From Thiobacillus sp. (GTDB lineage Bacteria; Pseudomonadota; Gammaproteobacteria; Burkholderiales; Thiobacillaceae): 45,353 bases of DNA. Under the pieces are notes generated by a model. The model was not told where the DNA came from. It saw only the letters and a list, made by a program, of their open reading frames with translations, and searched no databases. Shown here in pieces: positions 20,021-42,436 of the stretch. Position 1 is the stretch's first letter. Each line of letters starts with the position of its first letter. Position numbers and translations under genes: made by a program. Location: positions 1 to 45,353 of the forward strand of contig DYHB01000007.1 in the NCBI GenBank assembly GCA_020724415.1, given 5' to 3'.

Positions 20021-20070
20021 TAATTGTGACAAAGTGACAAGATGATGGCTCGCAAGGCAAGGAGAACGCA

Positions 20071-21105
20071 GTGACGAATAGCTTGACCATGACCCGGCCG
20101 GATGACTGGCACCTGCATCTGCGGGACGGCCCGGCCATGGCGGCGGTCCTGCCGGATACGGCAAGGCGCTTTGCCCGGGCCATCGTGATGCCCAACCTGA
20201 AGCCCCCCGTGCGCTCGGTGGCCGAGGCCGAGGCCTACCGGGCCCGCATCCTGGCCGCATTGCCCGCCGGCATGCGCTTCGAGCCCTTGATGACGCTCTA
20301 CCTGACCGACAATACCCGCCCGGACGAAATACGCTTGGCCAAGGCCAGCGGGTTCGTGCATGCCGTCAAGTATTACCCGGCGGGAGCCACGACCAATTCC
20401 GATTTCGGCGTCAGTTCCGTGGAGCGCGCATATCCAGCCATAGAAGCCATGGCCGAGGCAGGCCTGCCCCTGCTGGTCCATGGTGAAAGCACCCACCCGG
20501 ACGTGGACGTGTTCGACCGGGAGCGGGTCTTCATAAACGAAGTCCTGGCCCCTTTGCTGGCGCGCTTTCCCAGCCTGCGACTGGTCCTGGAACACATCAC
20601 CACCCGGGAGGGAATCGATTTCGTCCTGGGCCAGGGTCCCCAGGTGGGGGGCACCCTCACCGCCCATCATCTGCTCTACAACCGCAATGCCTTGTTCAAG
20701 GGGGGAATCCGGCCCCACTACTACTGCCTGCCAGTGCTCAAGCGGGAGGTCCACCGCCAGGCCCTGTTGGCTGCGGCGGTCTCCGGCAGCCCCAAGTTTT
20801 TCCTGGGCACCGACAGCGCCCCCCATACCCAGGACAGCAAGGAATGCGCCTGCGGCTGCGCTGGCATCTACTCGGCCCACGCCGGGATCGAACTGTATGC
20901 CGAGGCCTTCGAGGCAGCGGGCGCCCTGGATCGGCTGGAGGCCTTCGCCAGCTTCCATGGCCCGGATTTTTATGGCTTGCCACGGAATACCGATCGCATC
21001 ACACTAGTCAGACGGGACTGGGAGGTCCCGGCCAGCCTGGACTATGGTGCCGACAAGCTGATCCCCCTGAGGGCCGGCGAGAATGTCCGCTGGCAGATCG
21101 CTTAA
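20071..21105 (+). CDS. pyrC: Dihydroorotase, class II (PyrC)
   Basis: A 344-residue zinc enzyme closing carbamoyl-aspartate to dihydroorotate in pyrimidine synthesis. Metal ligands: H14 and H16 ([10 protein letters not shown]), carboxylated K100 ([15 protein letters not shown]), H137 (LLVHGES), H175 (LEHITT) and D248 (LGTDSAPHT). The length matches E. coli PyrC (about 348). The start is GTG 20071 with AAGGAGA upstream. It stands 50 bp after rsmI and is followed by pilU with no functional link. Confidence 0.95.
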
Positions 21106-37394: not shown

Positions 37395-38082
37395 TCCCTG
37401 GTCCATGACCCTGGCCGGTCGACTGATCTGGTTCGGCACCCTGCTGTTCACCGTGTACATGGCAGGTCGTCACTTGGCCGAGACCCACCTGCCCATACGC
37501 CAGGTGGTGGTGACAGGGGCGGAACGCCCGGAGACCCGGGCAGCGCTGGCCGGCGTGGTGCAGCGTCTTTCGGGCAGCCTGTTCACTATGGATCTGGAGG
37601 CGGCCCAAGCCAAGTTTTCCGGACTGCCATGGGTACGCCGGGCCTCGGTCAGCCGGGTCTGGCCCAACCGGCTTCAGGTCACCCTGACGGAGCACCAGCC
37701 CCTGGCCTCCTGGAACCGCACGGCCATGCTCAACCTGGAGGGCGAAGTGTTCCCCGTGGCACCCCTGGATGGGCTGGTGGACATTCGTGCCCCCGAGGGC
37801 ATGGAGCTGGATGTGGCGCGCAGGAAGAACGAATTCGCGGACATCCTGGGTCGGCATGGGCTGGATATCGCGGCCATCCATGTGGATGCCAGGCACGCCT
37901 GGCGCCTGCGCCTGGCGGATCAGGTCTGGGTGGACCTGGGCCGGGAACGGATGACAGAGCGTCTGACCCGCTTCGTGGCCTTCTACCCCCTCACCCAGCA
38001 ACTGGTGACCAACATCCAGCGGGTGGACATGCGCTACCCCAATGGCTACGCCGTCCAGGCGAAACAGGAACGCAAGACATGA
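37384..38082 (+). CDS. ftsQ: Cell division protein FtsQ
   Basis: A 232-residue bitopic divisome protein. The short cytoplasmic N-terminus is followed by one membrane helix (about residues 10-28), a POTRA domain starting at [15 protein letters not shown], and a beta domain with [20 protein letters not shown] and HQPLASW. It links FtsL/FtsB to the early divisome. The start is GTG 37384, inside the end of ddl. ATGA overlap with ftsA. Confidence 0.93.
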
Positions 38083-39332
38083 GTTTGAATGCCATGAACA
38101 AAATGCGGGAAAACAAGGATCTCATCGTGGGGCTGGACATCGGCACCTCGAAGATCGTCGCCATGGTGGCCGAGGTGCCGCCGGAAGGGGGCATCAACAT
38201 CCTGGGCATGGGCAGCGCACCCTCCAATGGCCTGAAAAAAGGCGTGGTGGTGAACATTGAAGCCACCGTGGGCGCCATCCAGCGGGCCCTGGAAGATGCC
38301 GAACTGATGGCCAACTGCAAGATCAGCCATGTGTATACCGGCATCGCCGGCAGCCACATCCGCTCCCTGAACTCCCACGGCATGGTCCCCATCCGGGACC
38401 GGGAGGTCTCCCAGTCGGACATGGACCGGGTGATCGAAACGGCCCGGGCGGTGAACATCTCCACCGATCAGCAGGTGCTCCACGTCCTGCCCCAGGAATT
38501 TGTCATCGATGGCCAGGAAGGGGTGCGGGAGCCCCTGGGCATGTCCGGCGTGCGCCTGGAAGTGAAGGTCCATATTGTCACCGGCGCCGTGTCTGCGGCC
38601 CAGAACATCATCAAGTGCGTACGCCGCTGCGGCCTGGAGGTGCATGACCTGATCCTGCAGCCCCTGGCCTCTTCCCTGGCCGTCCTCAACGACGACGAAA
38701 AGGACCTGGGCGTCTGCCTGGTGGACATCGGCGGCGGTACCACGGACATCGCCGTATTCACCCGGGGCGCCATCCAGCACACCGCCGTGATCCCCATCGC
38801 CGGGGACCAGATCACCAATGACATTGCCATGACCCTGCGCACCCCCACCCGGGAGGCCGAGGATCTGAAGATCCAGCACGGCATTGCCCTGCGCCAACTG
38901 GCCGATCCCAGGGAAATGATCGAGGTCCCCGGCATCGGCGACCGGGGACCGCGCATGCTGTCCAAGCAGATGCTGTCCGAGGTGATCGAGCCCCGGGTGG
39001 AGGAACTCTACAGCCTGGTCCAGGCGGAACTGCGCCGGAGTGGCTTCGAGGAGCAGATCTCCTCCGGCATCGTCCTCACGGGCGGTTCCAGCCAGATGAA
39101 GGGCATGGTGGAACTGGCCGAGGAGGTCTTCCACGCCCCGGTCCGGGTGGGCTTGCCCGAGTATGGCGGCGGTCTCTCGGAGCGGGTGCACAGCGCCCGG
39201 TATGCCACCGGGGTGGGCCTGTTGCTGGCGGGCCTGGAGAAGTATGAGCAGGACCAGGCCCATCGCCTGGAAGGTACGAGTTTCAAACAGGTCCTGGAAC
39301 GCATGAAGGCTTGGTTCCAGAACACGTTTTAG
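38079..39332 (+). CDS. ftsA: Cell division protein FtsA
   Basis: A 417-residue actin-like ATPase that tethers FtsZ to the membrane. Actin-fold motifs: IVGLDIGTSKIVAMVAE (phosphate 1), CLVDIGGGTTDIAVF (phosphate 2) and IVLTGGSSQMKGM (adenosine). The 1C subdomain lies near residues 85-165. The C-terminal amphipathic helix FKQVLERMKAWFQNTF is the membrane-targeting sequence. The gap to ftsZ (158 bp) is the largest within the cluster and holds an extensive inverted-repeat structure. Confidence 0.97.
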   Translation: MSLNAMNKMRENKDLIVGLDIGTSKIVAMVAEVPPEGGINILGMGSAPSNGLKKGVVVNIEATVGAIQRALEDAELMANCKISHVYTGIAGSHIRSLNSHGMVPIRDREVSQSDMDRVIETARAVNISTDQQVLHVLPQEFVIDGQEGVREPLGMSGVRLEVKVHIVTGAVSAAQNIIKCVRRCGLEVHDLILQPLASSLAVLNDDEKDLGVCLVDIGGGTTDIAVFTRGAIQHTAVIPIAGDQITNDIAMTLRTPTREAEDLKIQHGIALRQLADPREMIEVPGIGDRGPRMLSKQMLSEVIEPRVEELYSLVQAELRRSGFEEQISSGIVLTGGSSQMKGMVELAEEVFHAPVRVGLPEYGGGLSERVHSARYATGVGLLLAGLEKYEQDQAHRLEGTSFKQVLERMKAWFQNTF

Positions 39333-39337
39333 GTGAG

Positions 39338-39445
39338 AAGGCGTGACAAAAATGCGTGACATGAACGGCGTGACGAGTGACAGAAAAGGCGCATTCCTGC
39401 GCAGTCCCGTCACGCCCTTGCGTCACGCATGGATGGTCACGTCTT
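39338..39445 (+). repeat. Nested inverted-repeat element between ftsA and ftsZ
   Basis: Four helices nest around one centre. S1: 39338-39347 with 39436-39445 (10 pairs, one G-U). S2: 39352-39360 with 39422-39430 (ATGCGTGAC/GTCACGCAT, perfect). S3: 39367-39375 with 39408-39416 (GGCGTGACG/CGTCACGCC, perfect). S4: 39389-39393 with 39398-39402 (GCGCA/TGCGC). Internal loops are small, apart from 13 nt on the 5' side between S3 and S4. CGTGAC occurs three times on the left arm at 13- and 14-bp steps and GTCACG three times on the right arm at 13- and 14-bp steps. It fills most of the ftsA-ftsZ gap, so it may be an RNA element, a protein-binding array or a small repeat unit. Confidence 0.85.
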
Positions 39446-39490
39446 TCTTGTATGGATTTTTCAGTTTTTTCGCGCGTGAAGGAGGGCACC

Positions 39491-40666
39491 ATGTTGTTTG
39501 AATTGGAAGATATGCAGAGTCAGGAAGCGGTCATCAAGGTGATCGGCGTGGGTGGTTGCGGCGGCAATGCCGTGGACCACATGATCAACCGGGGCATGAC
39601 CGGGGTGGAGTTCCTGGCGCTCAACACCGACGCCCAGGCGCTCAAGCGAAACCAGGCGCCCATGCAACTCCAGATCGGCACCAATGTGACCAAGGGATTG
39701 GGCGCCGGGGCCAAGCCCGAGGTGGGCCGCGAGGCGGCGCTGGAGGACCGGGAACGCATCGCCGAGATGATCGATGGTGCCGACATGCTGTTCATCACCG
39801 CCGGCATGGGCGGCGGCACGGGGACCGGCGCCGCTCCCGTGGTGGCCGAGGTGGCCAAGGAACTGGGCATTCTCACCGTGGCGGTGGTCACCAAACCCTT
39901 CATGTTCGAGGGCAAGCGCATGCGGGTAGCGGACCATGGCTTGAAGGCCCTGTCCGAATATGTGGACTCCCTGATCATCATTCCCAACGACAAGCTGCGC
40001 AGCGTGCTGGGCGGCGGCATGAAACTCAATGAAGCCTTCATGGCCGCGAACGACGTGTTGCACAGTGCCGTGGGCGGAATTGCGGAAATCATTGCCAGTC
40101 CGGGCATGATCAACGTGGACTTTGCGGATGTACGCACTGTCATGAGCGAGATGGGCATGGCCATGATGGGGTCGGCCAGCGCCAGCGGCGAGGCCCGTGC
40201 CACTCAGGCCGCCGAAGCCGCGGTGAAGAGCCCCCTGCTGGAGAACGTGGACCTCAAGGGCGCCCGGGGCGTGCTGGTGAACATCACCGCCAACGACAGC
40301 CTGACCCTGGACGAGTACTACGATGTCATGAACACCATCCAGAGCTTTACCGCCGACGAAGCCACCGTCATCGTGGGCACCGCCTTCGATGCCGAAATGG
40401 GCGAGAACCTGCGCGTCACCATGGTGGCCACCGGCCTGGGCAATCCCGTCGCCCAGCGCCAGAACAAGCCCCAGGTGGTGGTGGACAACCAGCAGGTCAA
40501 GGCCACCGGCACCTATGATGCCGTGGGCAGTGCGCCCATGGAATCGGACATGGACCGGCCCACGATCTGGCGCAACCGGCGCAGCCAGGAGGCCATGACC
40601 ATGGCGGAAGAATCGGGGATCGATTCCATCGACATTCCCGCTTTTCTGAGAAAACAGGCCGATTGA
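39491..40666 (+). CDS. ftsZ: Cell division GTPase FtsZ
   Basis: A 391-residue tubulin homologue forming the Z ring. Nucleotide-binding elements: IGVGGCGGNAVDHM, the tubulin signature GGGTGTGA (107-114), NTDAQAL, and the synergy loop NVDFADVRTVM with catalytic Asp. A linker of about 60 residues ends in the conserved C-terminal peptide DIPAFLRKQAD, which binds FtsA/ZipA-type partners. The start is ATG 39491 with a strong GAAGGAGG upstream; longer in-frame starts would run into the inverted-repeat element and are rejected. Confidence 0.98.
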   Translation: MLFELEDMQSQEAVIKVIGVGGCGGNAVDHMINRGMTGVEFLALNTDAQALKRNQAPMQLQIGTNVTKGLGAGAKPEVGREAALEDRERIAEMIDGADMLFITAGMGGGTGTGAAPVVAEVAKELGILTVAVVTKPFMFEGKRMRVADHGLKALSEYVDSLIIIPNDKLRSVLGGGMKLNEAFMAANDVLHSAVGGIAEIIASPGMINVDFADVRTVMSEMGMAMMGSASASGEARATQAAEAAVKSPLLENVDLKGARGVLVNITANDSLTLDEYYDVMNTIQSFTADEATVIVGTAFDAEMGENLRVTMVATGLGNPVAQRQNKPQVVVDNQQVKATGTYDAVGSAPMESDMDRPTIWRNRRSQEAMTMAEESGIDSIDIPAFLRKQAD

Positions 40667-40680
40667 CCGGAGTCATGCAC

Positions 40681-40730
40681 CAAAGCCGCCCATGAGGCTA
40701 CAATATGTCCTTGAATTAAAAGTGGCTTTG
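40681..40730 (+). promoter_or_regulatory. Putative lpxC promoter region with flanking inverted repeat
   Basis: A -10-like TACAAT (40699-40704) lies in the ftsZ-lpxC gap without a good -35. A perfect 7-bp inverted repeat, CAAAGCC (40681-40687) and GGCTTTG (40724-40730), brackets it and ends 7 bp before the lpxC ATG. This could be a protein-binding operator or, in a read-through transcript from ftsZ, a stem just before the lpxC start. Confidence 0.4.
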
Positions 40731-40737
40731 GCAACGC

Positions 40738-41664
40738 ATGATCAAGCAGAGAACGTTAAGGACCCTTGTACGCGCTGCCGGTGTCGGGTTGCACTCTGGC
40801 CAGAAGGTGAATATCACCCTGCGCCCTGCCCCCCCCGACACCGGCCTCTTTTTTCGCCGTACGGACTTACCAGAACCGATTTCCTTCAAGGTTGACCCCC
40901 ACCGGGTCACCGATACCCGGCTATGTTCCGCCCTGGAATGCGATGGCGCCCGGGTAGCCACCGTGGAACACCTGATGTCCGCCCTGGCCGGGCTGGGCAT
41001 CGACAATCTGTACATAGACCTGGATGCTGCCGAAGTCCCCATCATGGATGGGTCGGCCGCGCCCTTCGTCTACCTGCTCCAATCGGCCGGCATCGAGGAG
41101 CAAAATGCGGCCAAACGCTACATCCGGGTATTGCGCCCGGTGCGGGTGGAAGAGGGCGACAAATGGGCCGAGATCGTCCCCCACAACGGCTTCCGACTCA
41201 CGTTCAAGATCGAATTCGACCACCCGGTGTTCCGCCAGTCGGCCAAGGAGCTCAGCTTCGACTTTGCCGAACAGTCCTATTGCAAGGAAATCAGCCGGGC
41301 CCGCACCTTCGGTTTCATGCGGGACGTGGAATACCTGCGCAGCCACGGCCTGGCCCTGGGCGGCACCCTGGACAATGCCATCGTCATGGATGAATTCCGG
41401 GTGCTCAACAGTGATGGCTTGCGTTACGCAGACGAGTTCGTGAAACACAAGATGCTGGATGCCGTGGGCGACCTGTATCTGGCCGGACACCCGTTGCTGG
41501 GCGCCTTCACGGCCTACAAGTCCGGGCATGGTCTCAACAACACCTTGCTGCGCGCCCTGCTGGATGACGCGGCATGTTGGGAATGGGCCACCTACGACAC
41601 CCCTGAAGCCTGTGCCCAGGGGGTGCCGTCCATGCAGTGGTGTCCTTCCCCAGCCACCCCATGA
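40738..41664 (+). CDS. lpxC: UDP-3-O-acyl-GlcNAc deacetylase LpxC
   Basis: A 308-residue zinc enzyme catalysing the committed step of lipid A synthesis. Zinc ligands are H78 ([16 protein letters not shown]), H237 and D241 ([14 protein letters not shown]). The general acid/base region is H264 (SGHGLNN). The catalytic Glu lies in VEHLM and the substrate loop in ARTFGFMRD. The length matches E. coli (305). It is the last gene of the dcw order. As a zinc enzyme it could be a client of zinc allocation, but no evidence links it to the island. Confidence 0.97.
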
Positions 41665-41677
41665 AAGCGAGCAAGCC

Positions 41678-42436
41678 ATGAATGCAAGCACAGAATCCCT
41701 GGATGGCATGACGGGGGCGGACGAGCCGTCCCCATATCAGGATCTGGCCGACATGCTGGCGGATACCAGCATTCTGTTCGGCCACATGGACAGCCAGGCT
41801 GCCCTCGAATTGTTATCGCTGGCGGCGCCCAGGTCCGTAAAAGCACGTCAGACGGTATGCCGCAAAGGTGAGCAGGGCGACGAACTGTACATCGTCACCC
41901 ATGGCAAACTGAAGGTCAGTTCATCGTCTGACGACGGGCGCGAGGCCATCCTGGCCATCCTGGAGGATGGCGACGTATTCGGCGAAATGTCCATCATCGA
42001 CGGTCATGTCCGTAGCGCCGATGTTGCTGCCGTCCAGGACACCGAGATGCTGGTCATCCACCGGCGCCAGTTCATGCCTTTCCTGGAGTGCCACCCCGGA
42101 GTCTGCATCGGCCTGCTCACGGCCTTGATCGAGCGCCTGCGGGGAACCGACGCCCTGCTGGAGGACATGCACTTCCTGGATATCCGCACCCGGCTCGCCA
42201 AGACCCTGAACAAACTTGCCCTGGATCATGGCCGTACCACGGCCGGGGGTGGCATTCGCATCGATCTGAAGTTGAGCCAGGAAGACCTGGGCAACCTGGT
42301 GGGCGCCACCCGCGAGAGCGTCAACAAACAACTGCGCGCCTGGGTGGATGAGGGAATCGTGGAACTGAGCCAGTCCACCATCGTGGTGCGGCAGTTGGAG
42401 GCCCTGCAGGGTTTCGTGAAAAGCCGGGAGCGCTGA
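41678..42436 (+). CDS. Crp/Fnr-family transcriptional regulator
   Basis: 252 residues. An N-terminal extension of about 35 residues precedes a cNMP-binding-like beta barrel (VCRKGEQGDELYIVTHGKLK and EDGDVFGEMSIIDGHVRSAD), a dimer helix and a C-terminal winged helix with LSQEDLGNLVGATRESVNKQ, the Crp-type DNA-recognition region. The N-terminus lacks the Cys cluster of FNR, so it is not an oxygen-sensing Fe-S protein. Whether it binds cAMP, c-di-GMP or another ligand cannot be read. It starts at ATG 41678, 13 bp after lpxC, and may be co-transcribed with it. Confidence 0.9.
   Translation: MNASTESLDGMTGADEPSPYQDLADMLADTSILFGHMDSQAALELLSLAAPRSVKARQTVCRKGEQGDELYIVTHGKLKVSSSSDDGREAILAILEDGDVFGEMSIIDGHVRSADVAAVQDTEMLVIHRRQFMPFLECHPGVCIGLLTALIERLRGTDALLEDMHFLDIRTRLAKTLNKLALDHGRTTAGGGIRIDLKLSQEDLGNLVGATRESVNKQLRAWVDEGIVELSQSTIVVRQLEALQGFVKSRER

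Follow-up and report, generated by a model that had tools for sequence, protein, structure and literature searches.

Known arrays of short intergenic repeats

Over-represented repeats of 7 nt are a long-known oddity of bacterial genomes. The STRR sequences of cyanobacteria are dispersed tandem heptamers, and the arrays described here resemble them in this respect but are built from other units and occur in another phylum. The REP and BIME elements of enterobacteria and pseudomonads are intergenic hairpins that are located in operons and avoid promoters. They consist of a unit of fixed length that is tied to a transposase, whereas the GTGAC arrays considered below are variable and the unit differs between genomes.

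The closest known systems are the inverted arrays of the heptamer GGGAATC in Xanthomonas. In Xanthomonas and Nostoc, the heptamers GGGAATC and GGGGA(C/T)T are intergenic, lie close to stop codons and have a convergent arrangement (Rehm et al. 2015, PMC4692102), which are features that the GTGAC arrays have in common with them. A single G-rich heptamer, investigated for quadruplex formation and common to two Xanthomonas species, is involved there, and heptanucleotides of Calothrix are also mentioned in the same paper (PMC4692102). The unit of the Thiobacillus genome studied here is instead based on GTGAC, lacks a G-tract and also exists in a 13–14-nt form, and relatives use other units at the same gaps. 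In Beggiatoaceae, TAACTGA direct repeats form intergenic heptamer arrays at many genes (MacGregor 2015, PMC4679880). Those repeats are found just upstream of start codons, with one inverted case only, whereas the GTGAC arrays are inverted and are located right after stops.

The array between ftsA and ftsZ

The window, which is the whole stretch of 45,353 nucleotides that was analysed, contains a 108-nt array that an earlier note on this DNA had placed between ftsA and ftsZ, in agreement with the Pfam matches to FtsA upstream and to FtsZ downstream (Table 1). The distance between the ftsA stop codon and the ftsZ ATG at 39491 is 158 nt, and the stop codon precedes the first GTGAC of the array by 10 nt. 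The nearest named record for FtsZ is from a Hydrogenophilaceae MAG (84% identity), the source genome being that of a betaproteobacterium.

Table 1 Positions of genes and array elements in the ftsA-ftsZ region of the window
Feature	Position	Strand	Description
ftsA	38079..39332	+	Pfam FtsA, E = 6.6e-51 (match 38079-39329); stop codon TAG at 39330-39332
Inverted array (nested hairpin)	39338..39445	.	From fold and hexamer positions; copy of the dispersed GTGAC family
Left arm, purine-rich	39342..39381	+	CGTGAC at 39342, 39355 and 39369, plus degenerate GTGAC at 39377
Apical hairpin GCGCA-TTCC-TGCGC	39389..39402	.	From fold; listed by the terminator scan as a - strand stem-loop
Right arm, pyrimidine-rich	39409..39441	+	GTCACG at 39409, 39422 and 39436
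ftsZ leader	39453..39490	+	T-rich tract (TTTTTCAGTTTTTTCGCGCG) and ribosome-binding site AGGAGGG; outside the array
ftsZ	39491..40666	+	ATG start; Pfam Tubulin/FtsZ, E = 4e-50 (match 39491-40663)
lpxC	40738-41661		Pfam LpxC

The description of the array as a nested inverted repeat with three copies of CGTGAC and three of GTCACG at matching distances proved accurate, the steps of 13 and 14 nt being exactly identical in the two triplets. Folding of the 108-nt array alone gave -56.0 kcal/mol, and with flanks (39320-39480) the value was -63.7 kcal/mol (z = -3.96), a stability that was reached by none of 200 dinucleotide shuffles. The nested hairpin that had been proposed is thus found in the computed fold, with 40 base pairs instead of the approximately 33 that had been estimated. 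The six copies of CGTGAC/GTCACG compare with at most two in any other 108-nt stretch of the 45-kb window, and GCGTGAC occurs 16 times in the window vs 6.9 times expected. Elsewhere in the window, a one-armed cluster with three GTGAC and no GTCAC is present at 20026-20075.

The reading frame of ftsZ is open upstream to a GTG at 39377, inside the array (39377-39491), and gene callers may therefore annotate a false 38-residue extension of FtsZ. At many copies of the array, start calls were misled by GTG and TGA triplets within the arrays.

A dispersed family of GTGAC arrays in the source genome

A BLAST search with the element detected further copies in the source genome (2.94 Mb, 259 contigs). 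The pattern CGTGAC-N5-9-CGTGAC was found 31 times, vs once for the reversed control, and GTGACNNGTGAC at least 135 times, vs four times for its reversed control pattern. About 30 arrays were read among the matches listed and the stretches that were fetched. A resident repeat element, which was one of the possibilities raised in the earlier note, is therefore supported, since the GTGAC unit recurs in inverted arrays at about 30 further sites of this genome.

In most of these arrays the unit consists of GTGAC followed by two or three purines (spacers GA, GG, AA, AAA, AGA), so that copies are 7 or 8 nt apart. A second form, with a 13–14-nt unit (GCGTGACGCAARG), is represented by the copy in the window and about six others; this subtype is less common than the one with 7/8-nt spacing and may have a separate history. 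The layout is one of GTGAC units, a loop and GTCAC units, with the purine-rich arm first, and in 21 of 22 two-armed arrays all GTGAC copies precede all GTCAC copies. The number of units per array ranges from 4 to 24, and the spacing between the innermost GTGAC and GTCAC from 3 to 31 nt. One-armed copies also exist, such as L276 with nine GTGAC and no GTCAC, L260 and L273, which indicates that pairing is not obligatory. Four contigs (C83, C155, C186, C190) terminate inside arrays, as is expected of repeats that break assemblies.

The arrays are mainly found in operon gaps. Among 62 arrays of the source genome and of relatives G001, G009, G018 and G005, the flanking genes, called with a simple hexamer coding score, were co-directional in 55 cases, convergent in 7 and divergent in none; the corresponding numbers for ordinary gene pairs were 49, 6 and 4 in the source genome and 57, 4 and 11 beside the arrays of relatives. 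In the source genome, the distance from a stop codon to the start of the array is mostly no more than about 25 nt, the TGA being supplied by the array in some cases, and the array extends nearly to the following start codon. The gaps concerned include (NCBIfam names) rpe-gph, fabD-fabG, ftsH-folP, glyA-nrdR, glmU-glmS, nusG-rplK, ilvC-psd and gnd-zwf, and further neighbours are metK, apbC/mrp (upstream of an apparent dcd gene) and the V-type ATPase subunits B and D. These are unrelated core genes, and the set bears no resemblance to a division regulon. Tandem units of about 7 nt, co-directional gaps and convergent arms are thus all shared with the Xanthomonas type. Runs of at least three G are missing from the unit GTGACRR and arise only across some of the GG spacers, and the arrays therefore appear to work like the Xanthomonas type without being members of the quadruplex-forming type.

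The V-type ATPase subunits B and D, whose genes flank an array in the source genome (L261; the loci of G018 and G024 are L391 and L401), belong to an ATPase type that is unusual for betaproteobacteria.

Other heptamers at orthologous gaps

The ftsA-ftsZ gaps of two relatives, G009 and G018, contain inverted arrays of other heptamers, CAGGGGT and ATGGGGG, respectively, and both units form dispersed families in these genomes (57 vs 0 and 20 vs 0 for the controls). CAGGGGT also occurs 37 times in G005 (control 0) and CTAGGGG, found by means of a TAGGGG pattern, 65 times in G024 (control 0); the TAGGGG pattern is absent from the gap in G010, and so does not explain that gap. Comparison of flanks revealed gaps with arrays in two genomes, namely the V-ATPase B-D gap in the source genome and G018, mrp-dcd in the source genome and G005, and one gap in G001 and G009. 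Since G009 and G018 were first spotted through their ftsA-ftsZ gaps, this gap is not independent evidence for sharing of sites, and a lag-7 signal in 2 of 26 ftsA-ftsZ gaps of the bacterial family indicates that it is seldom an array site.

A comparison of orthologous gaps was started from the upstream genes of 19 other array gaps of the source genome, with no use of the relatives' arrays for the choice. A single concatenated query was used to look for orthologues in seven genomes, and 80 regions were fetched from five of them. Lag-7 self-similarity with z > 2 was present in 26 of 47 syntenic gaps (40–200 nt, five relatives), vs 6 and 4 gaps for lags of 6 and 8 nt, and the mean z values for lags 6, 7 and 8 were 0.95, 2.39 and 0.15, respectively. 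In three of these relatives, the signal was seen in 4 of 23 co-directional gaps located near arrays, a difference (Fisher p = 0.002) that is indicative only, because the thresholds of z > 2 at lag 7 and 40–200 nt were chosen a single time, when arrays had already been noticed by eye; these controls are small and partly drawn from array neighbourhoods, and several genomes are drafts. The lag-7 signal was found in 0 of 17 control gaps of the source genome and in 1 of 22 ftsZ-lpxC gaps.

The glyA-nrdR gap is the clearest case, with an inverted heptamer array in six of six genomes and a different unit in each (L259, L402, L404, L405, L417, L458). The units are GTGACRR in the source genome, CTAGGGG-like in G024, ATGGGKG in G018, GTGAGGC and TAGGGG-like in G005, GGGAAAT in G009 and ATCAGGG in G002, and every array is an inverted pair that folds across the gap. 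G002, whose genome is a single contig, additionally carries arrays at ilvC-psd and ftsH-folP. The 5' half was the more purine-rich one in all 20 lag-7 gaps of at most 130 nt (mean 0.61 vs 0.33), and in 10 of 16 other gaps. Since the arrays cannot be aligned between genomes, the data do not discriminate between an inherited array with a replaced unit and arrays that grew independently in the same gaps. What goes beyond the Xanthomonas report is that orthologous gaps often hold inverted arrays with a different heptamer in each genome; no description of such unit replacement between genomes was found in the literature searched.

Possible origin and role of the arrays

A cis-acting RNA or attenuator that is specific for ftsZ and sets the FtsA:FtsZ ratio is suggested by the highly stable hairpin immediately upstream of ftsZ, by the other hairpins that occupy this gap in some relatives, and by the antisense RNA StfZ, which is encoded in the ftsA-ftsZ region of E. 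coli (PMC9628754). Both an RNA regulator of the FtsZ level and an attenuator had been put forward in the earlier note, and we now consider such readings very unlikely. No GTGAC array was present in the approximately 70 related ftsA-ftsZ gaps that were read, and similar arrays occupy the many other operon gaps of the source genome, adjoining unrelated genes. When 107 relatives' ftsA-ftsZ gaps were compared with ftsZ-lpxC gaps, the folding energy of the former (mean z -1.24) was no lower than that of the latter control (-1.57), which indicates no extra structure. Conservation of the pairing, which would support a regulatory RNA, was not seen in the ftsA-ftsZ gaps of relatives, which lack a homologous array, and an Rfam scan of the window matched only RNase P elsewhere, with no family for the array. 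As to attenuation, a terminator and promoter scan of 39000-40800 gave no hit on the + strand, and hence no terminator-like site there, and the main T-runs are about 10 nt or more past the stem instead of following a GC-rich stem immediately. Furthermore, the ftsA-ftsZ gaps of close relatives end with a leader of the type TTTTTTCGCGCGCGTAA-GGAGG, also when the gap is no longer than 36 or 46 nt, and in array-free relatives, e.g. G020 (36-nt gap) and G013 (46-nt gap), the leader resembles TTTTTTCGCGCG...GGAG. Since these short gaps keep the leader without having an array, the T-tract is part of the ftsZ leader rather than a terminator tail, and support for an attenuator or a conserved ftsZ RNA is lost.

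A set of binding sites for a DNA-binding protein, e.g. the Crp-like regulator that is encoded nearby (41675-42433), would fit the resemblance of GTGAC/GTCAC to half of the Crp site (TGTGA-N6-TCACA). However, the variable centre of the arrays contrasts with the fixed 6 nt of this operator and argues against a fixed array for a dimeric regulator, as had been envisaged earlier; the arrays are located in operon interiors, with none between divergent genes, and the heptamers of relatives at the same gaps are unrelated, which makes this explanation highly improbable. A transposable palindrome similar to REP/BIME or MITE elements, which a transposase would mobilize, would explain that the arrays are dispersed, intergenic, hairpin-forming and missing from divergent gaps, as well as the contigs that end in them. 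It is nevertheless an unlikely explanation, in view of the variable number of units and ends in place of a fixed-length palindrome, some arrays having one arm only, the different unit sequence at the same gap in different genomes, and the lack of a match for the element in plasmid and phage searches. The arrays may also be selfish or neutral products of slippage that have no function and are tolerated where gaps allow, which we regard as possible rather than probable. Units that are genome-specific, the variation in copy number, one-armed copies and the many orthologous gaps without arrays all agree with this, but a filter, at the minimum, is required to account for the strict purine-first order and for the presence of different heptamers in the same gaps. 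Translational coupling through the overlapping GTGA start/stop in GTGAC was dropped as a general rule, since the units of other genomes (CAGGGGT, ATGGGGG) have no stop codon.

We therefore favour the explanation, and consider it probable, that the array upstream of ftsZ belongs to a genome-specific family of inverted simple sequences dispersed over operon gaps, and that it most likely has no role specific to ftsZ and is either inert or generically useful. Such arrays would grow and shrink through replication slippage, and the hairpin form may arise via strand switching or via selection for pairing. They would be co-transcribed with the operon, and each array RNA would then be a hairpin that separates two cistrons. 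A generic benefit might be that decay from the 3' end is blocked, or that an untranslated gap offers no suitable RNA to Rho, for which the loading site is unpaired C-rich RNA; the purine-first order would, on this hypothesis, be what a Rho filter demands.

A more far-reaching idea, which we put forward tentatively and with considerable doubt, is that in this betaproteobacterial family certain operon gaps retain an inverted array, the hairpin and the purine-first order while the sequence of the unit is replaced. This would be a sequence-free intercistronic device, e.g. a shield against Rho or 3' decay, of which the ftsA-ftsZ array would be one instance. What was suspected to be a regulator of FtsZ has in any case given way to a genome-wide pattern. 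If gaps indeed keep arrays while units change, such conservation would be missed entirely by sequence alignment, and the role of over-represented 7-nt repeats in bacteria would become testable.

GTGAC-based repeats are also present in other genomes. In G001, which belongs to another genus of the same family, the 13-nt GTGAC type occurs (L278-L285), and no gap in common with the source genome was found. The more distant G059, from the same order, has its own GTGACTG family and contains an array with a single arm, made of 16 GTCACCA units (L287, G059:C28:60655-60764).
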